Below, one piece after another: positions 3,916 to 64,000 of a stretch of 64,000 nucleotides of DNA. Each line of letters starts with the position of its first letter. Positions within the stretch are counted from its first letter, which is position 1. The translations under genes were made by a program, and so were the position numbers. Source of the stretch: Acidobacteria bacterium RIFCSPLOWO2_12_FULL_68_19 (lineage in GTDB: Bacteria > Acidobacteriota > Vicinamibacteria > Vicinamibacterales > UBA2999); contig MELF01000010.1 in assembly GCA_001767525.1 (NCBI GenBank), positions 104,235 through 168,234 on the forward strand, given 5' to 3'. The notes below the pieces were generated by a model. It was not told the origin of the DNA. It made no database searches and worked only from the letters and a program-made list of their open reading frames with translations.

Positions 3916-4020
3916 GGTGGTAGGTGGTAGGTGGTAGCCGGTAGGCGGTAGCCGGTAGCCGGTAGCAGAACCCGGAATCGCCACGCCTACCGGCTACCGC
4001 CTACCGCCTACCACCTACCG
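3916..4020. repeat. Head-to-head GGTAGCC heptamer arrays forming a large palindrome
   Basis: The left arm (3921-3969) is seven 7-bp units of the TAGGTGG/TAGCCGG/TAGGCGG type. The right arm (3986-4020) is five units of CCTACCG/GCTACCG/CCTACCA, the reverse complement of the left family. Only about 16 nt separate them, so the transcript could fold into a long hairpin. The right arm contains the fdhD stop codon (TAG read on the minus strand at 4015-4017), so the array starts exactly where that gene ends. Confidence 0.92.
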
Positions 4021-53299: not shown

Positions 53300-53379
53300 T
53301 GAATCCCGCGGATCGAGAACCCCGTCGCGGCAGCTTCGTCGTCTTCTCGGCTGAGCGTCCGCTTCGGCCCCGATGCTGA
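53296..53379 (+). CDS. Possible 27-residue coupling ORF between asnB and the GT-C-like gene
   Basis: An ATG overlapping the asnB stop (ATGA) opens a 27-codon frame starting MMNPADREPRRGS, whose stop falls 4 nt inside the next gene (ATGCTGA). It bridges the gap exactly and could couple translation of the two genes. It has no recognisable domain and may be fortuitous. Confidence 0.3.
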   Translation: MMNPADREPRRGSFVVFSAERPLRPRC

Positions 53380-55058
53380 CGTCGAGCGCCGTTCGTCACA
53401 GCAGCCCGGACAGCGCCACGCGCCCGCGCAATACGCGGAGGCAGGCTACTCCGCGCGCCTTCTGCGTGGCCGTCGTCCTGGTCGCCGGGCTTGCGCTTTT
53501 CGGCATGGCGTTTTCCATACGCGCGCAGGCGCTCCGAGGCGACGACTTCGCGCTCGTGCAGGCATTCACGGGACAACCATTCCAACGGTCCCTGCGGCGC
53601 GCGTTTGCGAGCTGGGACGACGTCCTGGGCGCATCGCCCTGGGCGGCTGGTGCGGAGCCCTATCAGTTGATTCGACCGACGACGGGGCTGTCGTTCTTCG
53701 TGAATGCCGAGGTATGCGGCGCCGGACCCGCGTGCCTCGCGGCGGGCAACGTGGTTCTTCTGCTGCTGGCCGGGGCCGCGCTGTGCGCGGCCGGTCGGAT
53801 GATTCAGTTGCCGCAGACTGCCGCGCTCGCTGCGCCGGTCCTCTTCTGGGTGAACCCGGGCGCAATCTCTTCGCAGCTGGCAATTGCCGACCGAACCGAG
53901 GCGATCGCCGGCCTGGCGCTGCTGGCTGCGCTGCTCGCGTATCACAAGTGTCGACGCGCCGTCTCGACGGGGTACTGGGCCGTGTGGTTTGCGGCAGCTG
54001 TCGCCGCCAGCGCCGCGGCCATGGGCGCGAAAGAAACAGCCGTGCTCACGCCGGGCATTCTGGTGGGACAGGCGCTCATACTCGGCGACTGGAGACAACG
54101 GCGACGGTTCTTCCCCGGCGAGGTCGTGGTCCTGCTCTGCCTCCTGCTCGGATACCTCGCCGCGCGGGCCGCGGTGCTGGGTACGGTGGGCGGGCAGTAC
54201 GGATCGGTGACTCCCGGTATCGCCGACATCCCGGTAAACCTGGTTCGTGCGGCGGGCGCACTGCTCTTCTTCAATCGGCAGCACCTGCCTGCAAATCCGT
54301 TCGTGACGACGGCGGTTGCAGGGGCGATCGTCTCGCTCGTCCTCATAGCGGCGGCCGAAGCCCGGACATCCTCGCTGCGGCGGTTCGCGTGGATCGCCTT
54401 CGTCGCAGCCGCCGCGAGCGCGCCGGCGCTGGCGACACAGGTGTTCGCGCGGCTGCTTTTCATTCCTGCGGCCATGCTGACGCTGACGATCGCGTTGGCT
54501 GCGGCGGCCCCACAGGCCCGTCTCCGGCAGATCGCGGCGTTCGGAGCAGCGTCGTTGGTGCTCCTCAATTTTCTCCACATCTACGCGACCGAGCTTCGCA
54601 GCATGCAGGTGGCCAGCCGCCGGACAACGGTGGAGCTCGCCGCCCTGACGAGGCTCGTGGAGCAGAGTCCACGACCATCAGTGGTGATCGGGTTCCCTGC
54701 CGGCGCCGGGGGGATGGCCGTCTTCCACCGGTCGTTCGACGTGGCGATCCGAGCGACCGCCACCAGGGCGCAGCAGCCGATCGTGGGGCTGATTGGGTCG
54801 CAAACGCCGCAGCCACGCTGCGATGTCCGCATCGAGTTCGCGTCTTCCACCGTGGCCGCGTCGACGACACCTCCGTGTGAGCTCGTGCTTCCGAACTATC
54901 CGGGCCGGCCGCTGGCAGACGCCGCTGTCGCGACGAGATTCACGGGCCTTGGTCCGGTTACCGTCGAGTCGCCCACGCGGGTGGTCGTCGACGTCGATCG
55001 CAGCCAGTGGGATGTGATCGTTCCGAAGGCGCCGGGGCAGTGGGTGCGGCTCGAATGA
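53373..55058 (+). CDS. Polytopic membrane protein, GT-C glycosyltransferase-like (copy 1)
   Basis: A 561-residue protein with about ten membrane segments. After segment 1 ([18 protein letters not shown]) comes [10 protein letters not shown]; an acidic pair in the first external loop is a hallmark of GT-C enzymes using lipid-linked sugars. The last 150 residues form a soluble domain ([20 protein letters not shown] to [10 protein letters not shown]). No domain name comes to mind. A clear paralogue is at 60372. Its role in assembling or decorating the polymer is inferred from motif and context. Its stop overlaps a small ORF. Confidence 0.8.
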
Positions 55059-55267
55059 AGGTGCAGTTGCAGGTACTCGAGCTGCGAGCGTGCGACAACA
55101 TGCTGGAACGCATCCCCGTGCTCCTGCGGCCCGCATATCGCGTCGTCAGCCGGGTGTTTTCCGGCTGCAAGGATTCCTGGCTGCTGGTGGCGCGAAAGCC
55201 TCCGGGGTGGACGGCTTGCCGGAGTCTGCCCGAGGTCGAGCTGAGGCAAATCATGGAGGCGAGGTAG
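55055..55267 (+). CDS. Small hypothetical protein coupled to the GT-C-like gene
   Basis: A 70-residue protein starting [19 protein letters not shown], sharing ATGA with the previous stop. The chain is basic with a hydrophobic patch ([13 protein letters not shown]). No family is recognised. A decayed version of its first codons follows the second GT-C-like gene at 62016, so the gene order was duplicated together, which supports it being a genuine unit. Confidence 0.5.
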
Positions 55268-55276
55268 GCGCCTGGC

Positions 55277-56233
55277 GTGAGAACCCTCGTGACGGGTGGA
55301 GCCGGCTTCATCGGCAGCCACTTCGTGGATCGGCTGCTCGCGGCGGGGCATGACGTCGTCGCCTACGACAACTTCTCGACCGGCCAGGAGCGTTTTCTCG
55401 ACCAGGCGCTCACGCACCCGCGATTTCAGCTGATTCGGGGGGACCTGCTCGATCGGCCCGCCCTCGCCGCGGGCGCGCAGGGAATCGACCTCGTGTTTCA
55501 CTTCGCGGCCAATGCCGACGTCAGGTTCGGCCTCGAGTGGCCCGAGCGCGATCTGCAGCAGAACGCGGTCGCGACCTTCAACGTGCTGGAGGCGATGCGC
55601 GCGAACGGGGTGACGCGCATCGTGTTCGCCTCGACCGGGTCGGTCTACGGCGAGCCGGACGTGTTCCCGACGCCGGAAGACGCGCCCTTTCCGCGCCAGA
55701 CGTCGCTCTACGGCGCAGCGAAGCTCGCCGGCGAAGCGCTCGTGCAGGCGTACTGCGAGGGATACGGCTTCCAGGGCTACATTTTCAGGTTCGTGTCGAT
55801 TCTCGGTGAGCGCTACTCGCATGGACACGTGTTCGATTTCTACAGGCAGCTGCGCGCGCACCCGGACACGCTCCACGTCCTGGGCGATGGCCACCAGCGC
55901 AAGTCGTACATTTACGTGCACGACTGTCTCGACGCCATCTTCTGCGCCCTCGAGCGCGCGGTCAATCGCGTGAACATCTTCAATCTGGGAACCGACGAGT
56001 ATTGTGAGGTGAACGACTCGGTCCGGTGGTTGACCCGCGAGCTCGGTCTGTCGCCGGTTCTATCGTACACCGGCGGCGCCCGCGGCTGGGTCGGGGACAG
56101 CCCGTTCATCTTTCTCGACTGCCGGAGAATTCGCTCGCTCGGGTGGCGGCCGGCCCTGTCGATTCAGGACGCGATCGTGCGCACGGTCCGGTACCTGCGG
56201 GCGAACGAATGGCTGCTCGACGCGCGCCGATGA
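55277..56233 (+). CDS. NAD-dependent epimerase/dehydratase (extended SDR)
   Basis: A 318-residue nucleotide-sugar enzyme starting at a [23 protein letters not shown], a glycine-rich NAD site. The catalytic YxxxK is in [13 protein letters not shown], with Ser/Thr in [10 protein letters not shown]. It resembles UDP-glucose 4-epimerase and related enzymes. Its product would be a sugar nucleotide for the locus. It overlaps the following SDR gene by 4 bp. A frameshifted remnant of its N-terminus is at 62056. Confidence 0.92.
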
Positions 56234-57099
56234 AGCCCCTCGACGGCCGGACCGTACTGCTGACCGGCGCCACCGGCACGCTGGGGCGATCGATTGCCGA
56301 CGCCTACGCCCGCGCCGGAGCGCGTCTGCTCCTGTCCGCCCGCCACGACGCCCCACTGCAAGGGCTGGCCGGTGAACTGTCCGCGCGATACTCGACGGAG
56401 GTCGCCGTTCACCCGTGCGATCTGTCGGACGCCGCCGATATCCGCCGCCTGCCCGACGAAGCGCGCCGCCTGTTCGACCGCCTCGATGTTCTGGTGAACG
56501 CCGCTGCCGTGCTCGGACCGGTCGGTCCCCTCTGGGAAGTGGACTGGGCGGAGTGGACCCGCGCCATCGACATCAACCTCTGCGCGCCGGCTCGCCTCTG
56601 TCAGCTCTGCGTTCGGTCCATGCCCCGCAGCGCCGGCCGCGGAAAGATCATCAACGTGGCCGGCGGAGGCGCCACCTCGCCGCGGCCTCGATTCTCGGCA
56701 TACGCCGCCGCCAAGGCCGCGCTCGTTCGCTTCTCCGAGACGCTGGCGCACGAAGTGGCCGATCGGTCGGTCGACGTCAACTGCATCGCGCCCGGCGTGC
56801 TCCGCAGCCGGATGAGCCAGGCCGTGCTCGATGCCGGCCCCGAGCGCGCCGGCCCGGAGGAGCACGGGAAGGCTGAACGCGTCCTGAAGGAGGCGGCCGA
56901 CGGGCGGCTCCGCGCGGCGGAGTTGTGCGCGTTCCTGGCCTCCGACGCCAGCGACGGGATCACCGGGAAGTTGATCAGCGCGATCTGGGATCCCTGGGAA
57001 TCGTTCGGCGAGCATCGAGCCGATCTGGGCGCCACCGACGTGTATACGATACGTCGCATCCTTCCCGAGGATCGCGCGCTGTCGTGGCGGGGGCTGTGA
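56230..57099 (+). CDS. Short-chain dehydrogenase/reductase
   Basis: A 289-residue classical SDR: the cofactor motif TGATGTLGRSIADAYA, NAAAVLGP (NNAG equivalent), Ser in NVAGGGA and Tyr-x3-Lys in YAAAKAALVRFSE. The C-terminal 55 residues (AIWDPWESFGEHRADLGATD to SWRGL) extend beyond the usual fold, as in sugar-nucleotide SDRs associated with glycan loci. It likely acts with the neighbouring oxidoreductase on a sugar or its nucleotide. Both ends overlap adjacent genes (ATGA and GTGA), so five genes are translated in a chain. Confidence 0.88.
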   Translation: MKPLDGRTVLLTGATGTLGRSIADAYARAGARLLLSARHDAPLQGLAGELSARYSTEVAVHPCDLSDAADIRRLPDEARRLFDRLDVLVNAAAVLGPVGPLWEVDWAEWTRAIDINLCAPARLCQLCVRSMPRSAGRGKIINVAGGGATSPRPRFSAYAAAKAALVRFSETLAHEVADRSVDVNCIAPGVLRSRMSQAVLDAGPERAGPEEHGKAERVLKEAADGRLRAAELCAFLASDASDGITGKLISAIWDPWESFGEHRADLGATDVYTIRRILPEDRALSWRGL

Positions 57100-58115
57100 G
57101 CGCGGGCGTCGGGATCGTCGGATGCGGGCGGATTGGCCGCCGCCGCGCCGAAGCGCTTGCAACCGCCCGTCTCGTGGCGTGCGCCGATCGCGATCCCGCG
57201 CGGGCCGAGGCGCTGGCGCGCGCCTCCGGCGGCGTCGACGTGGAGCGCGACTGGGAGCGCCTGCTGTCCCGGTCCGACATCGACATCGTCGTGGTGGCCA
57301 CGACCAACGATGCGCTCGCGCCGATTACGCTGGCGGCGGTTGAAGCCGGCAAGCACGTGCTCGTGGAAAAACCGGCGGCGCGGACGTCGACCGAACTGGA
57401 GCCTGTGGCTGCCGCCGCGGCCAGGGCACACGTGCGGGTACGGGTTGGATTCAACCACCGCTATCATCCAGCGCTCAGGAAGGCGCGGGAGCTCGTCGAT
57501 GTGGGGGCGTTGGGACCGCTGCTCTTCGTACGGGGCCGGTACGGCCATGGCGGCCGACTCGGCTACGAGCGCGAATGGCGGGCCGACCCGGCGCTGTCAG
57601 GCGGCGGTGAGCTCATCGATCAGGGCGTGCACCTGATCGATCTGGCGCGCTGGATGCTCGGCGAGTTCACCACCGTCGGCGGCTTTGCGCACACCTACTT
57701 CTGGGAGATGCCCGTCGACGACAACGCGTTCCTGCTGCTCAGGACCCCCTCGGAACGGGCGGCCTTTCTCCACGTGAGCTGCACGGAATGGAAGAACCTG
57801 TTCTCGTTCGAGATCTACGGGCGAACCGGGAAGCTGCAGGTGGAAGGGCTCGGCGGCAGCTATGGCCTGGAGCGCCTGACGTACTTCAGGATGCGGCCTG
57901 AGATGGGGCCTCCCGATACCGAGGTCTGGGAGTATCCAGGCGGCGATCGGTCGTGGGAGATGGAGTTCGAGGAGTTTCTCGACGACATCCGCCTCGGCCG
58001 GCCGCCTGCCGCGGGACTCTCCGACGCCCGCGCCGCGCTGCGCATCGTGGAGGCGGTCTACCGGCAGTCGGGCGCCGTGTTCGCGGGCGCGGCCGGACCG
58101 GTCAGATCCAGATGA
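57096..58115 (+). CDS. Gfo/Idh/MocA family sugar oxidoreductase
   Basis: A 339-residue protein from a GTG overlapping the SDR stop: VGIVGCGRIGRRRAEALA binds NAD(P), HVLVEKPAA holds the family's catalytic Lys, and GGGELIDQGVHLIDLARWML has the conserved His. It oxidises or reduces sugars or cyclitols. A frame opening farther upstream lies inside the SDR gene and is rejected. The stop overlaps the heptose kinase start by 4 bp. Confidence 0.92.
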   Translation: MSAGVGIVGCGRIGRRRAEALATARLVACADRDPARAEALARASGGVDVERDWERLLSRSDIDIVVVATTNDALAPITLAAVEAGKHVLVEKPAARTSTELEPVAAAAARAHVRVRVGFNHRYHPALRKARELVDVGALGPLLFVRGRYGHGGRLGYEREWRADPALSGGGELIDQGVHLIDLARWMLGEFTTVGGFAHTYFWEMPVDDNAFLLLRTPSERAAFLHVSCTEWKNLFSFEIYGRTGKLQVEGLGGSYGLERLTYFRMRPEMGPPDTEVWEYPGGDRSWEMEFEEFLDDIRLGRPPAAGLSDARAALRIVEAVYRQSGAVFAGAAGPVRSR

Positions 58116-59092
58116 TCATCACCCGCAGCCCGCTTCGCATCACGCTCGGCGGAGGGGGCACCGACCTCCCGTCGTACTCGCGCCGCTTCGGCGGGTTCGT
58201 GATCACGGCGGCGATCGACAAGTACGTGTTCGTCACGGTGACGAGACCGTTCACGAAGGGGATCTACCTGAAATACTCGCAGCTCGAGAAGGTGGACACT
58301 GTTTCCGAGGTGCAGCATCCGATCGTCCGCGAGGCGCTCAGGCTCGTGGACGGGGAGCGCCCGCAGATCGAGATCACGACGCTTGCCGATATTCCCGCCG
58401 GCACCGGGCTCGGATCGTCGGGAAGCTTCACGACGGCGCTGCTCAAGGCGCTCCACGCCCACCGCCGGCGGCTGCTCCATCCCACCGAGCTGGCCGAACT
58501 GGCGTGCGAGATCGAAATCAATCGACTGCACGAGCCAATCGGCCGGCAGGACCAGTACGCGGCCGCCATCGGCGGCCTCACCTGCTTCACCTTCAATCAG
58601 GACGACAGCGTGACGGTGGAGCCCCTGCACCTCCGGTACGAACTGCTCCACCAGCTCGAAGACAACCTGCTGCTGTTCTTCACGGGGTTCGCGCGCAGCG
58701 CCGCCAGCATCCTGCAGGAACAGGACACACGAACCTCCGCCTCTGACGACGGCATGCTGGCGCATCTGCACTACGTCAAGGAGCTGGGGCTGCGAAGCCG
58801 GCAGGCGCTCGAAGCCGGGCGCCTGGAGGAATTCGGGGCGCTCATGCACGAGCACTGGGAACACAAGAAGAAGCGCTCGGCGCAGATGAGCAACGGTCAG
58901 GTGGATGAATGGTACGAGCTGGCGCGCACGAGCGGCGCGCTCGGCGGCAAACTGGTCGGCGCCGGCGGCGGCGGGTTCTTGCTCTTCTACACCGAGCGAC
59001 AGCGGCAACTGCGCGAGGCGATGCAGAGCGCCGGCCTGCAGGAGCTTCGATTCCGGTTCGATTTCGAGGGCACGACGGTGCTCTTTTCATGA
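58112..59092 (+). CDS. hddA: GHMP kinase, D-glycero-D-manno-heptose 7-phosphate kinase type
   Basis: A 326-residue kinase: MIITRSPLRITLGGGGTDLP at the N-terminus, ATP loop PAGTGLGSSGSFTTALLKAL, and C-terminal GGKLVGAGGGGFLLFY. The family includes HddA, which phosphorylates heptose-7-phosphate at C1 to feed GDP-heptose synthesis. A heptose nucleotidyltransferase-like gene starts at its stop (ATGA) but is truncated after 21 codons. The last 390 bp recur at 63083 as a damaged duplicate. Confidence 0.9.
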   Translation: MIITRSPLRITLGGGGTDLPSYSRRFGGFVITAAIDKYVFVTVTRPFTKGIYLKYSQLEKVDTVSEVQHPIVREALRLVDGERPQIEITTLADIPAGTGLGSSGSFTTALLKALHAHRRRLLHPTELAELACEIEINRLHEPIGRQDQYAAAIGGLTCFTFNQDDSVTVEPLHLRYELLHQLEDNLLLFFTGFARSAASILQEQDTRTSASDDGMLAHLHYVKELGLRSRQALEAGRLEEFGALMHEHWEHKKKRSAQMSNGQVDEWYELARTSGALGGKLVGAGGGGFLLFYTERQRQLREAMQSAGLQELRFRFDFEGTTVLFS

Positions 59093-59135
59093 CGCTGCCC
59101 GTGGCCGTTCTCACCGGCGGTGTCGCCACCAGCCC
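58699..59135 (+). repeat. Long direct repeat, copy A (kinase 3' end and nucleotidyltransferase 5' end)
   Basis: This segment and 63083-63520 align base for base at an offset of about 4384 nt, with scattered substitutions and one single-base deletion in copy B. Long stretches are identical (for example around 58801-58890). The similarity fades some 45 bp into the nucleotidyltransferase gene. Confidence 0.9.
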
Positions 59136-59154
59136 TTTCGGTACCACCTGTTGA
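59089..59154 (+). pseudogene. Truncated 5' end of the heptose nucleotidyltransferase gene
   Basis: ATG overlapping the kinase stop opens MTLPVAVLTGGVATSPFGTTC and ends at TGA. The first 12 codons match the intact gene at 63472 (MTLPVAILAGGRATRLGD); then similarity stops. The gene was cut here by a rearrangement. The next 235 nt (to 59389) hold no recognisable gene and have lower GC content. Confidence 0.8.
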
Positions 59155-59389
59155 CCAATGCCCTATTTGTGCCGCGGATAGTGCACGTGTAAGGAGCAAC
59201 ACGGTGTTCACATCAGCGGACTTCCGAAAGGCATGAGAGTAGGCTCCGAATTGTATGGTCGCCGGAGATCCGACTCCCCCGGACAGCGGTCCAGTAGGGC
59301 CCACAGGTTGCCGCCCTTGCATCACATCGAAATGAAAGGAGTCAGGGCTTCGCTCACCGATGAATCGATGAGGCCGTGATCGCTTTCGA

Positions 59390-60175
59390 ATGGACAAATC
59401 AACGTTGGTCAGGCTGTTCGGCTTTGCCGCGACGGTGTTGCACGGCGATCCGGGCGTCTTGGATCGATGGCTGTGGGTCCGAACGCGACTGCCGAAGACA
59501 TGCAACGCAGAAAGAATCATCGATGTGGGATGCGGCAGCGGCGCTTTTTCCATCGGTGCAGCGCTCAGGGGTTACGAAGCTCTGGGATTGAGCTGGGACG
59601 AGCGCAACCAGCGCGTAGCCGCTGAACGCGCGGGCATCTGCAATGCGCACACAGCGAAGTTTCAGGTGCTGGATGTCCGTCACCTTGACACTCGACACGA
59701 GCTCCGAGGTGTGTTCGCCGTGGCGCTCTGTCTCGAAGTCATCGAACACGTGCTCGACGATCGGAAGCTGATGCGTGACGTTGCTGCGTGCTTGAAGCCG
59801 GGCGGGCGTCTGATTCTGACGACTCCGTACCTGCTCAACCGCGCTATTACCGGGCCAGACAACGGACCCTGGTCGACCGTTGGAGACGGCGGTCACGTAC
59901 GCAGAGGGTATACCGAAATGATGCTTCGGGAACTGTGCGCTCAGGCCAACCTGCTCCCCGAAGCGATCTCGTTCGGCTCGGGATTCATCAGCCAAGAGGT
60001 CACACTCATTCAGAGGATGTTCGCCCGGATTCACCCGCTCGTCGGGTGGGCTGTCGCATTGCCGTTTCGCGCCCTCCAAGTAGTGGATCGACCCGTCACC
60101 CGCCTGCTCGGGTGGCCCTACTTCTCGATTCGCCTCGAGGCGTACAAGCCGCGATTTCGTGTCGACGCCGGTTAG
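59390..60175 (+). CDS. Class I SAM-dependent methyltransferase
   Basis: A 261-residue protein. SAM-binding motif I is IIDVGCGSGAFSIGAAL, with LCLEVIEHVLDD and GGRLILTTPYL as later motifs. It may methylate a sugar of the polymer. Base composition is visibly less GC-rich than the flanking genes, and it lies inside the segment bracketed by the direct repeat, consistent with later acquisition. The start MDKSTLVRLFG lacks a strong ribosome-binding site. Confidence 0.88.
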   Translation: MDKSTLVRLFGFAATVLHGDPGVLDRWLWVRTRLPKTCNAERIIDVGCGSGAFSIGAALRGYEALGLSWDERNQRVAAERAGICNAHTAKFQVLDVRHLDTRHELRGVFAVALCLEVIEHVLDDRKLMRDVAACLKPGGRLILTTPYLLNRAITGPDNGPWSTVGDGGHVRRGYTEMMLRELCAQANLLPEAISFGSGFISQEVTLIQRMFARIHPLVGWAVALPFRALQVVDRPVTRLLGWPYFSIRLEAYKPRFRVDAG

Positions 60176-60371
60176 CCCGAATGCCTTTTGCCGACGTTGC
60201 TGTCGAGGACGGCCTGACATGGGAGCCGAGTCTCGCCGACCGGTGTCCGTTGCCAAGCCGCGCACGACACGACGGCCGGATGTGGGTGCGGCCACGCGAG
60301 GCGGGCGCCTCATGGTCCTCAGTGGCTGCATAATCAATCGTCCTTCAATGGCCTCTTAACCGAAGTCCGCT

Positions 60372-62018
60372 ATGCGGCCGACCACGCGAGGCACAGCCGC
60401 TGTGCAGAGCGCCGCGGATTGCAGGCATCCGGCGACCCGCATGCTCGCGGCAATCGCGGCCATCGCAGGCACGTGCGGGCTGGCCGGTATGGCGTTCGCG
60501 ATCCGGGCGCACGCGCTTCGCGGGGACGATTTCAGCCTGATCCACACATTCAGTGAGTTGCGTAACGTGTTCTTTACGTGGGACGAGCTGTTCGCTTCAC
60601 CGTGGGTGGCAGGGCACCCCGAACAGTTGTTCAGGCCAACGACCGGAGTATGGCTCTATGCCAACGTGTTGATCTGCGGTCCCACCGCCAGGTGCCTGGC
60701 TGCGGGCAACGTGCTGCTCGTGGCGCTTGCTGGTTGGGCCCTCTACAGCTGCGCGCGCATGATTCAGCTGCCATCCGCTGTAGCTCTTACCGCAGCCGTC
60801 GTCTTCTTGATCAGTCCAGGAGCCATTTCGCCGCAACTGGCGATTGCCGATCACCCCGATGTATTGGCCGGCTTGTCACTCTTGTGGGCGCTCCTGGCGT
60901 ATCACCGATGCCGGTTGGCGGGTTCAGGAACCAGCGCAACGGCATGGTTTGGAGCGGCAGTCGCTGCCTGCATTGCGGCAATGGGCTCCAAGGAAACGGC
61001 TGCCCTTGCCCCGTGGATTCTCACCGGACAGGCGGTAGTTCTCGGTGACTGGCGCCGTCGACGCCGCGCGTTCTTCGTCGAAACGATCCTCCTGACCTGC
61101 GTGCTGGCCGGTTACTTTGTCGTGCGGCTGATTCTGTTCGACAGCGTTGGCGGGCAGTACGGATCGATTTCCCCAAGTGTCGTCAATGTGCCGGCGAACG
61201 TGGCACGTACTGCCGTGGGACTCTTGTTCTTCAATCGGCAGCAATTCGTCGCCAACTTGCCGGTAACCGCCGCGGTCGTGACCGCCGCCGCGGCGCTTCT
61301 CATACTCATCCTCCGGGCGGCGATGGAGAACGTGACGCCTGGTCTTCGATGGATCGTTTTCATTGCGGTCGCTGCAAGTGTGCCGGCCCTCGTGACCCAC
61401 ACCTATGCGCGGCTTCTATTCATCCCCGCAGGTATGCTCGCACTAATAATTGCGATCGTCGTGTCGGCACCCGGCTCGCATGCACGCCGGGTCATCGCCT
61501 CCGGGGCTGCGTCATTACTTCTCGTACAGTTCCTATTCGTCTATGGAACGCAGCTTCGCAACATGCAGTCGGCCAGTCGCCGTACAGTTGCCGAACTCGC
61601 CGCACTGACAGCGCTGCTAGAGGGATCCCCCCGTCCTGCCCTCATCGTCGGTTATCCGGGCGACGCCGCAGGGATGGCCGTGTTCCATCGGTCCTTGGAC
61701 GACGCGCTGCAGGTCACAATGCCGCAGAGGCAGCAGCCGGCTGTCGGGTTGATTGCATCGCAGACTCCGGAGGATCGTTGTCCCATCGTCGTGCACCAGG
61801 CGTCGTCGGTGGTAAGGGCCACGACGCAACCGCCGTGTGAGCTCGCACTCCCCAATTATCGTGGCCAGCCGGCGCCAGGCGCACGCGTCCACACGACGCT
61901 GAACGGCGTCGGTCCTGTTACGTTTCACTCCCCTACGCAAGTGAGCGTGGCAGTGGATCGTGGCGCTTGGGATGTAATCGTTCCCGACTCGGCCGGGGGG
62001 TGGGATCGGCTTCAATGA
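60372..62018 (+). CDS. Polytopic membrane protein, GT-C glycosyltransferase-like (copy 2)
   Basis: A 548-residue paralogue of the protein at 53373, alignable from end to end: LAGMAFAIRAHALRGDDFSL near the N-terminus, LAAGNVLL, MIQLPSAVAL, MGSKETAALAP, SVGGQYGSISPSV, and the closing DVIVPDSAGGWDRLQ. About ten membrane segments and the same acidic pair in loop 1. Codon use is slightly less GC-biased than copy 1. The two copies may act on different sugars or positions. The 196-nt gap before it holds no gene, though it contains a short sequence resembling the start of this gene. Confidence 0.82.
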   Translation: MRPTTRGTAAVQSAADCRHPATRMLAAIAAIAGTCGLAGMAFAIRAHALRGDDFSLIHTFSELRNVFFTWDELFASPWVAGHPEQLFRPTTGVWLYANVLICGPTARCLAAGNVLLVALAGWALYSCARMIQLPSAVALTAAVVFLISPGAISPQLAIADHPDVLAGLSLLWALLAYHRCRLAGSGTSATAWFGAAVAACIAAMGSKETAALAPWILTGQAVVLGDWRRRRRAFFVETILLTCVLAGYFVVRLILFDSVGGQYGSISPSVVNVPANVARTAVGLLFFNRQQFVANLPVTAAVVTAAAALLILILRAAMENVTPGLRWIVFIAVAASVPALVTHTYARLLFIPAGMLALIIAIVVSAPGSHARRVIASGAASLLLVQFLFVYGTQLRNMQSASRRTVAELAALTALLEGSPRPALIVGYPGDAAGMAVFHRSLDDALQVTMPQRQQPAVGLIASQTPEDRCPIVVHQASSVVRATTQPPCELALPNYRGQPAPGARVHTTLNGVGPVTFHSPTQVSVAVDRGAWDVIVPDSAGGWDRLQ

Positions 62019-62137
62019 TGCCGCTTATCAGAGTGCTGGAGAGGCTGCACGTGCGGTGAAGAGCTCTCGTCACCGGCGTAGCCGGCTTCATCGGCGGCCA
62101 CGTTGTTGATCGTCTTCTGGCGCTGGCCATGAACTAG
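62016..62137 (+). pseudogene. Decayed small ORF and epimerase 5' fragment
   Basis: After the GT-C-like stop, a 14-codon frame (ATGATGCCGCTTATC...) corresponds to the start of the small gene at 55055. From 62056, GTGA-AGAGCTCTCGTCACC then AGCCGGCTTCATCGGC follows the epimerase start at 55277 with a one-base insertion, and breaks off at about 62132 before a TAG. Gene order thus matches 55055-55277 but both genes are dead. Confidence 0.8.
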
Positions 62138-62227
62138 TTCCTCATCGTCTATCGTCCCGACGATGCGATCGAGCGCGCGCTGCAGATGTTCGAGGAGATC
62201 AGGCGGGAATCGGGACATGCTCCATGA
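62138..62227 (+). pseudogene. 3' remnant of an unidentified gene, coupled to the GT2 gene
   Basis: An open 29-codon stretch with no start (FLIVYRPDDAIERALQMFEE onward) ends at TGA overlapping the GT2 ATG (ATGA). That junction type marks real adjacent genes here, so this is probably the tail of a lost upstream gene fused to the epimerase fragment. The family is not recognised. Confidence 0.5.
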
Positions 62228-62931
62228 ATCGCCTCTGGGTCGTCATGCCCGTGTACAACGAGCGGGACTGCGTCGCGTCCGTCGTGGGGGAATGGCTCGC
62301 GGAGTTGCGCGGCGCGGCGATCGATTTCACATTGTGCCTGCTGAACGACGGGTCGACCGACGACACGTTGCGGATACTCCACGAACTGGCGTCGAGGGAG
62401 CGTGAGCTTGTCGTCATCGACAAGCCCAACAGCGGACATGGACAAACCTGCGTGGAAGGCTATCGGACGGCCCTTGCGCACGGCGCGAAGTGGATCCTTC
62501 AGGTGGACGGCGACGGGCAATGCGATGCGTCGCTGTTCCCGCTGTTCGTCAAAGCATCATCGCGGCATCCGGTGACGTACGGCTTTCGCCGCATCCGCCG
62601 CGACGGCCACTGGAGGCATCTCATCTCGCGCGTCGTCAGTCTGACTGTGTGTGCCGCCACCGGCTCGTGGGTGCGAGACCCCAACGTGCCCTACCGGCTG
62701 ATGCACGCCCGCACGCTCGAGGACATCGTGGGTCAGGTGCCGTCCGACTTCCACCTGGCCAACGTCCTGGTGGCCGTGCTGCAGCAGCGGTGGCATGGGA
62801 TCCACTGGGTGGACATTCACTTCAGGCCGCGAAGCGCCGGCACCTCCAGCATGAAGGCACTCGGGTTCGTCACGCGTGGGGTTCAACTGTTCACACAACT
62901 GAGGCGATGGAGCGCCGTCAGCTCGCGTTGA
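62224..62931 (+). CDS. GT2-family glycosyltransferase
   Basis: A 235-residue GT-A fold enzyme: LWVVMPVYNERDCVASVV, LLNDGSTDDTLRIL, KPNSGHGQTCVEGYRTAL and metal-binding DGDGQCD. It resembles dolichol-phosphate-mannose-synthase-like transferases, without the C-terminal membrane helices. It probably adds a sugar to a lipid carrier or to the repeat unit; GT-C enzymes such as the neighbouring copies use polyprenyl-linked sugars that this type makes. The next 150 nt (62932-63082) contain no recognisable gene. Confidence 0.9.
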   Translation: MNRLWVVMPVYNERDCVASVVGEWLAELRGAAIDFTLCLLNDGSTDDTLRILHELASRERELVVIDKPNSGHGQTCVEGYRTALAHGAKWILQVDGDGQCDASLFPLFVKASSRHPVTYGFRRIRRDGHWRHLISRVVSLTVCAATGSWVRDPNVPYRLMHARTLEDIVGQVPSDFHLANVLVAVLQQRWHGIHWVDIHFRPRSAGTSSMKALGFVTRGVQLFTQLRRWSAVSSR

Positions 62932-63082
62932 CACTGTGGACGGTCGCGGCGATTACCCTGGGGGAGCGCCTTGTCGCCGAGATCAGCGTTTCGCTCGTTG
63001 AACGTCGTCGCGACAAGCGACCTCACCCGCCGATTGCGAGTCAGCGGCACCATGACGACGTCGAGCCTTGGCCCGCACGTCG

Positions 63083-63475
63083 CGCCACCAGCATCCTGCG
63101 GAAACAGGACATACGAACCTCCACCTCCGGTGACCACTGCTGGCGCATCTGCATTACGTCAAAGAGCTGGGCCTGCGAAGCCGGCGGGTGCTCGAAGCCG
63201 GGCGCCTGGAGGAATTCGGGGCGCTCATGCACGAGCACTGGGAACACAAGAAGAAGCGCTCGGCGCAGATGAGCAAGGGTCAGGTGGATGAATGGTACGA
63301 GCTGGCGCGCACGAGCGGCGCGCTCGGCGGCCAGTTGGTCGGCGCGGGCGGCGGCGGCGTCCTGCTCTTCTATACGGAACGTCATCGGCAACTGCGCGAG
63401 GCGATGCGGAGCGCCGGCCTGCAGGAGCTTCGATTCCGGTTCGATTTCGAGGGCACGAAGGTGGTCTTCTCGTGA
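63083..63475 (+). pseudogene. Truncated, frameshifted copy of the heptose kinase gene
   Basis: It aligns with the last 390 bp of the kinase gene at 58112. A single-base deletion near 63133 breaks the frame, so only a 95-codon piece from a GTG at 63188 (MLEAGRLEEFGALMHEHWE) stays open to the normal stop. It lacks the ATP-binding half and should be inactive. It remains joined to the intact nucleotidyltransferase. Confidence 0.85.
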
Positions 63476-64000
63476 CGCTGCCCGTGGCCATCCTGGCCGG
63501 CGGTCGGGCGACCCGGCTCGGCGATCTGACGAAAGACACGCCCAAGTCGCTCGTCGAGGTCGCGGGCAGGCCGTTCATCGCGCACCAGCTCGACCTGCTC
63601 CGGCGGCACGGGATCACTCACGTGGTCGTGTGCACCGGCCATCTCGGCGTCCGCATCGAGGAGGCGCTCGGCGACGGCTCGCAGCACGGCGTCCGCATAC
63701 GGTATTCACCCGACGGCCCGCGCCCTCTCGGCACGGGCGGCGCCCTGCGTCGGGCGCTTCCGCTCCTCGGCGATGCCTTCTTCGTGCTGTATGGCGATTC
63801 GTATCTCGAGTGCGACTATGCCGCCATCGCGCGGGCGTTTCTCGCGAGCGCCCGGCTGGCCCTGCTGACCGTCCTCCCGAACGACAACCGGTGGGACCGC
63901 AGCAACGTCTCCTGCCGCAACGGGCGCATCGTCGGCTACAGCAAGTCGCAGCCGACGCCGGACATGCGGCACGTCGACTACGGCCTTGCGGCGATCCGCG
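63472..64000 (+). CDS. hddC: Heptose-1-phosphate nucleotidyltransferase-like protein, partial
   Basis: The first 176 codons are present; the gene runs off the right edge. MTLPVAILAGGRATRLGDLT is the nucleotide-binding GGxATRL signature, KDTPKSLVEVAGRPFI the substrate lysine region, and VLYGDSYLECD a metal-binding segment. It matches sugar-1-phosphate nucleotidyltransferases of the HddC type (GDP-D-glycero-D-manno-heptose synthesis), which fits the kinase upstream. It starts with GTG overlapping the pseudo-kinase stop. Confidence 0.88.
   Translation, partial: MTLPVAILAGGRATRLGDLTKDTPKSLVEVAGRPFIAHQLDLLRRHGITHVVVCTGHLGVRIEEALGDGSQHGVRIRYSPDGPRPLGTGGALRRALPLLGDAFFVLYGDSYLECDYAAIARAFLASARLALLTVLPNDNRWDRSNVSCRNGRIVGYSKSQPTPDMRHVDYGLAAIR

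Follow-up and report, generated by a model that had tools for sequence, protein, structure and literature searches.

A reciprocally divided kinase-nucleotidyltransferase pair suggests the merger of two exopolysaccharide cluster versions in an Acidobacteria genome

Introduction

Gene clusters for surface polysaccharides are known mosaics, and the joining of such clusters is a well-known route by which surface sugars diversify. The closest precedent for the locus described here is the cps locus of Neisseria meningitidis, in which two regions, D and D', carry galE1 in an intact and galE2 in a truncated form (PMC5349592). In Salmonella, the O-antigen cluster of group D2 is a D1/E hybrid, and remnants of wzy are found in groups B1 and D1 (PMC3715488). 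The pathway to GDP-heptose, a type of sugar that bears on the genes considered below, is represented in Campylobacter jejuni by HddA, HddC, GmhA and GmhB (PMC10680097).

We analysed a 64,000-nucleotide stretch (the window) of contig MELF01000010.1 from Acidobacteria bacterium RIFCSPLOWO2_12_FULL_68_19, in which a sugar kinase gene and the adjoining nucleotidyltransferase gene are divided around a segment of further polysaccharide genes. Coordinates are positions in the window, and all features from the first GT-C-like gene to the nucleotidyltransferase, repeat copies and remnants included, lie on the forward (+) strand.

Results

The divided pair is bounded by a direct repeat. BLASTN aligns positions 58690-59121 with 63074-63504 at 90.5% identity over 432 columns (E=1e-168), and a repeat search, at offsets 4383/4384, recovers one stretch of 300 nt at 94% and another of 61 nt at 82%; both bear out an earlier, sequence-only reading of the window, which had reported about 440 bp recurring at offset 4384 and had named the genes around the repeat correctly. 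The left copy (58690-59121) holds the 3' part of the kinase gene, KIN, and the first codons of the nucleotidyltransferase gene, NT, while the right copy (63074-63504) holds a kinase remnant, KIN' (63074-63475), followed by the start of NT; the 4.21-Mb genome contains these two copies and no third. As the assembly comprises 52 contigs and may be metagenome-derived, two strain variants might in principle have been stitched into one contig. Misassembly is unlikely, however, because the longest exact run common to both copies is only 87 nt, which is below ordinary read length. The copies are also 9% apart (the nearest relative is 22-26% away), and the decay at both ends of the divided region could not have come from an intact variant; we regard an artefact of this kind as very improbable.

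The two copies of the pair are damaged in complementary ways. On the left, KIN (58112-59092) is a whole GHMP kinase of 326 aa (PF00288/PF08544) resembling the heptose 7-phosphate kinase HddA; its best NCBIfam match is NF049969 (HddA) at 173.7 bits, under the cut-off of 600, and its best PDB matches are the heptose kinases 3k85 and 4usm. Directly 3' of it, the remnant NT' (59092-59154) opens with the codons MTLPVAVLTGGVAT... and matches the right NT for about 14 codons, the similarity ending after ~42-50 nt and giving way to unrelated sequence and a stop codon (59152-59154). On the right, KIN' starts near codon 194 of the 326, the 5' 60% of the gene being gone; it has a 1-nt deletion near 63136, with a 95-codon tail still open, and is altered at invariant residues (GGK to GGQ and GGGGF to GGGGV). 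The NT that follows (63472-64173, running past the window end at 64000) is a whole sugar-1-phosphate nucleotidyltransferase (PF00483), 74% identical to that of the relative G023; among NCBIfam models it scores 121 bits against a MurU-like family (cut-off 250) and 64 bits against an HddC-like one (cut-off 300). These alignments agree with the earlier description of a whole kinase beside a cut nucleotidyltransferase on the left, and of a truncated, frameshifted kinase beside a whole nucleotidyltransferase on the right. They are also the ends predicted by a single crossover, in which a circle carrying a fragment from the KIN 3' end to the NT 5' end, together with the genes now lying between the repeats (MT, GTC2 and GT2), recombined with the resident pair.

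In an order-wide search at a kinase identity of at least 60%, KIN and NT are spaced 0-40 nt apart in 12 of 13 relatives; the thirteenth (L041, G098) keeps only both ends of NT after 2475, with the isomerase next. In the eight relatives read in detail, GFO-KIN-NT are contiguous or a few bases apart, with EPI and SDR mostly upstream and the SIS, HAD and TAL genes downstream. Since KIN and NT abut in 12 of the 13, the split in the studied genome is derived, and the same spacing upholds the earlier proposal that one ancestral kinase-nucleotidyltransferase pair had been divided.

The host segment upstream of KIN begins with GTC1 (53373-55058), a GT-C-like membrane protein of 561 aa with no match in Pfam or NCBIfam. 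It lies directly upstream of EPI (55277-56233), a whole NAD-dependent sugar epimerase/dehydratase (PF01370, E=9e-53) that relatives keep upstream of SDR-GFO-KIN-NT. There follow a short-chain dehydrogenase, SDR (56233-57099; PF00106), and a GFO/IDH/MocA oxidoreductase, GFO (57102-58115; PF01408/PF22725), the order of which is kept in relatives. At 55059-55276, a frame of 70 codons overlaps the stop of GTC1, and a 14-codon frame is seen at the matching place after the second GT-C-like gene.

Between the repeats, a spacer (59141-59389) with a GC content of 0.566, against 0.68 in the window, precedes MT (59390-60175), a SAM-dependent methyltransferase (PF13489/PF08241; GC3 0.71) with no match at E<=1e-20 among 160 other genomes of the order. 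The second GT-C-like membrane protein, GTC2 (60372-62018; 548 aa; GC3 0.70), was recognised by its similarity to GTC1, with which it shares 54% amino acid identity; nothing in Pfam exceeds its cut-off (DUF2079 is reached at E=0.0066), and an AlphaFold model of GTC2 with GTC1 as the alignment is of very low confidence (pLDDT 36). Assignment of both proteins to GT-C is unproven; for GTC1, its basis is only the many helices predicted and an LRGDDF motif that follows the first of them. A scan of genome contigs with the GTC alignment returned a single match, which is weak, covers 47 residues and comes from a Sumerlaeia MAG.

After GTC2, in the place that EPI occupies after GTC1, lies EPI' (62060-62132), the remnant of an epimerase start, which matches 55280-55353 at 78% over 74 nt (E=7e-11) and the epimerases of two relatives at ~80% over 57-60 nt. 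It is followed by a short frame tail (62138-62226), recognised by reading of the sequence and ending ...FLIVYRPDDAIERALQMFEEIRRESGHAP*, which may be what is left of the 3' end of a gene of foreign origin. Because the stop of this foreign-looking frame overlaps the start of GT2 (62224-62931), a DPM1/ArnC-like family 2 glycosyltransferase (PF00535; weak PRK10714), its position suggests that GT2 may derive from yet another operon; homologs of GT2 in the genomes G050 and G021 adjoin membrane-protein genes. Neither the locus itself nor relatives offer a convincing match to the spacers at 59141-59389, 60176-60371 and 62932-63072, and a scan of 59000-63600 yielded no promoter or terminator, where ~1 and ~3, respectively, would be expected by chance.

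The order of the insert, GTC2-EPI'-...-KIN'-NT, is colinear with that of the host, GTC1-EPI-...-KIN. Most of EPI and all of SDR and GFO are absent from it, and a 0.94-kb piece carrying GT2 fills the gap. A single crossover does not predict the colinear EPI' after GTC2, unless the circle came from a homologous cluster, and the insert is free of replication, integrase and transposase genes, with no insertion sequence recognised in it; we consider that route unlikely.

The copies can also be compared by their divergence. Across 333 aligned coding bases, the two kinase copies are separated by 14 synonymous changes in 80 sites and 9 nonsynonymous changes in 253 (Fisher p=1e-4); with branches polarised by G023, 7 synonymous and 6 nonsynonymous changes fall on the right branch (p=0.02), and 4 and 2 on the left. 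Because the differences are mainly synonymous, it would appear that the copies diverged mostly while both were under selection and that the right one broke later, a reading that is suggestive rather than firm because the counts are small and the right-branch bias depends on 13 changes. For GTC1 and GTC2, dN is 0.39 and dS 1.37, against a dS of ~0.19 for the kinase tail. An equal age for all of the duplicated genes is ruled out by this difference, unless gene conversion acted; the disparity is of the kind usually seen between the variable and the backbone genes of surface-sugar loci, as when allelic loci are compared.

Differences between the left and right repeat copies are unevenly spread. 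One occurs in 142 nt (58807-58948) and 12 in the next 55 (58949-59003), where the left copy differs from G023 at 40 and 7 positions, respectively; the limits of these segments were picked post hoc, while the permutation statistics, weighted by site variability, are independent of them and give p=0.008 for the longest gap and p=0.001 for the sum of squares. Such patchy identity suggests conversion between the copies, or else a mosaic ancestry or donor sequence. It also fits a local tandem duplication of the stretch from GTC to NT with reciprocal loss afterwards, the kinase copies being kept alike by gene conversion, as do the identical gene order in the two units and the confinement of both GTC copies to the studied genome among the genomes searched. 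Yet the GTC dS of 1.37 against a KIN dS of 0.19 demands strong conversion, and the changes in the right KIN look like those made under selection, even though this copy would have been redundant from the outset; we find a purely local origin rather unlikely.

A second split, between a flippase and a putative polymerase, lies 4-11 kb downstream and has the same topology as the KIN/NT split (coordinates here continue the window numbering beyond 64000 on the same contig; L003, L004). FLP1 (67198-68562) is whole and its adjoining gene is cut after ~50 codons (68564-68711), while FLP2 (from 71078) has a frameshift close to its start and its adjoining gene (72400-73827) is whole; the FLP1 and FLP2 stretches are 73.5% identical. 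At the left cut there is a 99-nt piece of an RGP-family gene (73829-74821), with 68720-68817 matching 74152-74250 at 98% while the flanking duplicated genes reach only 73%, an observation that we leave unexplained. A GT4 gene at 68782-69828 has an in-frame stop at ~69550 and no clear start, and is probably a pseudogene.

The genes upstream of the divided pair also belong to an exopolysaccharide cluster, among them an EPS glycosylphosphotransferase that scores above the TIGR03025 cut-off. The flippase-like proteins match Polysacc_synt_3 slightly under its cut-off. Downstream of NT are a SIS (GmhA)-type isomerase, a HAD phosphatase, a transaldolase, a GT4 gene, flippases and a putative polymerase; of these, the SIS-type gene, identified by sequence reading, and the HAD gene (PF13242) are conserved downstream of NT in relatives. 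The locus is best explained as a hybrid Wzx/Wzy-type exopolysaccharide or capsule cluster. We infer a GDP-heptose-type sugar as its product, and the exact sugar can only be proposed because KIN and NT score below the HddA and HddC cut-offs of NCBIfam. Elsewhere in the window, at 3926-4019, there is an inverted repeat of ~95 nt, 85% identical, which folds back on itself.

Discussion

We think it probable, though well short of certain, that two related versions of an exopolysaccharide cluster merged and that one copy of each doubled gene was then lost. A segment of a diverged version (MT-GTC2-epimerase-...-kinase-nucleotidyltransferase) would have joined the resident version at the KIN/NT pair, probably by recombination in genes common to both, and would have been imported rather than duplicated locally. 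On the resident side, the nucleotidyltransferase would have been lost while epimerase, SDR, oxidoreductase and kinase survived; the added side would have lost its epimerase, SDR, oxidoreductase and most of its kinase while keeping the nucleotidyltransferase, along with its extra genes for the methyltransferase, the GT-C-like protein and GT2. These losses would have come after the joining, and the added genes may have changed the sugar. The remnants NT', EPI' and KIN' are present at the joins.

We favour a merger because KIN and NT adjoin in 12 of 13 relatives; because the host order GTC-EPI-...-KIN-NT recurs among the remnants of the insert; because KIN divergence is mainly synonymous and would have arisen before the right copy broke; because GTC dS is far above KIN dS; because the distance between the left and right copies is smaller than that from either to the nearest relative; and because the downstream split has the same topology. 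The sequence-only reading had seen a plain insertion, from which we depart because the segment follows the host order and most differences between the kinase copies are synonymous, and it mentioned neither EPI' at 62060-62132 nor the second split downstream. Its suggestion of serotype-like diversification is consistent with the polysaccharide genes in the segment. Several points count against a merger. Conversion may have lowered KIN divergence, in which case both copies might date back to the GTC split, and the 0.94-kb GT2 piece does not fit straightforward colinear copying, so that one further join is required. Also on this side, a search for the donor locus found no close match to GTC, MT or GT2 in the 160-162 genomes of the order searched, nor any close match to GTC among 396 genomes of the phylum, although absence from the sampled genomes does not exclude the existence of a donor.

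The earlier description of the locus as a frozen step is too strong, as the event is undatable beyond the kinase dS of ~0.19. The accompanying idea of the original pair being restored by recombination between the repeats is plausible as a mechanism, and the patchy identity may hint at past or present exchange. A bolder proposal, which we rate as doubtful, is that the repeat is active, conversion and crossing-over homogenising parts of the kinase copies and being able to loop out MT-GTC2-GT2 in some cells as a surface-sugar switch reversible by deletion, and that tandem merger with reciprocal loss is the usual route to new clusters in this lineage, as the two splits of the same shape might indicate. 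Loss of the insert would be a concrete test of whether the tandem state is stable. To our knowledge, a tandem intermediate that retains both parental versions with complementary losses is rarely caught, and the two splits within a single cluster of this little-studied lineage allow the formation of new clusters to be read.

When set beside the described systems, the isomerase, kinase, phosphatase and nucleotidyltransferase types of the C. jejuni pathway are all present here, although, unlike HddA and HddC, the kinase and nucleotidyltransferase of this locus score below the NCBIfam cut-offs. The Salmonella clusters are alike in recombination between related clusters and in the gene remnants left where the clusters join or close by. 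D2 arose by replacement and has an H-repeat remnant at its join (PMC3715488), whereas the present locus retains the two versions of the segment in tandem, with no insertion sequence found. In the meningococcal cps locus, as here, a transferred polysaccharide segment is flanked by a repeat in which one copy of a sugar gene is intact and the other truncated, and the truncated galE marks the integration point (PMC5349592). The D/D' repeat is inverted and larger, and has been shown to allow inversion of the cassette (PMC5349592), whereas the present repeat is direct and ~430 nt long, divides two different genes reciprocally, and is accompanied by no observed rearrangement. The locus belongs with the hybrid (mosaic) surface-polysaccharide loci, as a clear example of an ordinary kind, and is distinctive in its reciprocal loss in direct tandem, twice in one cluster.
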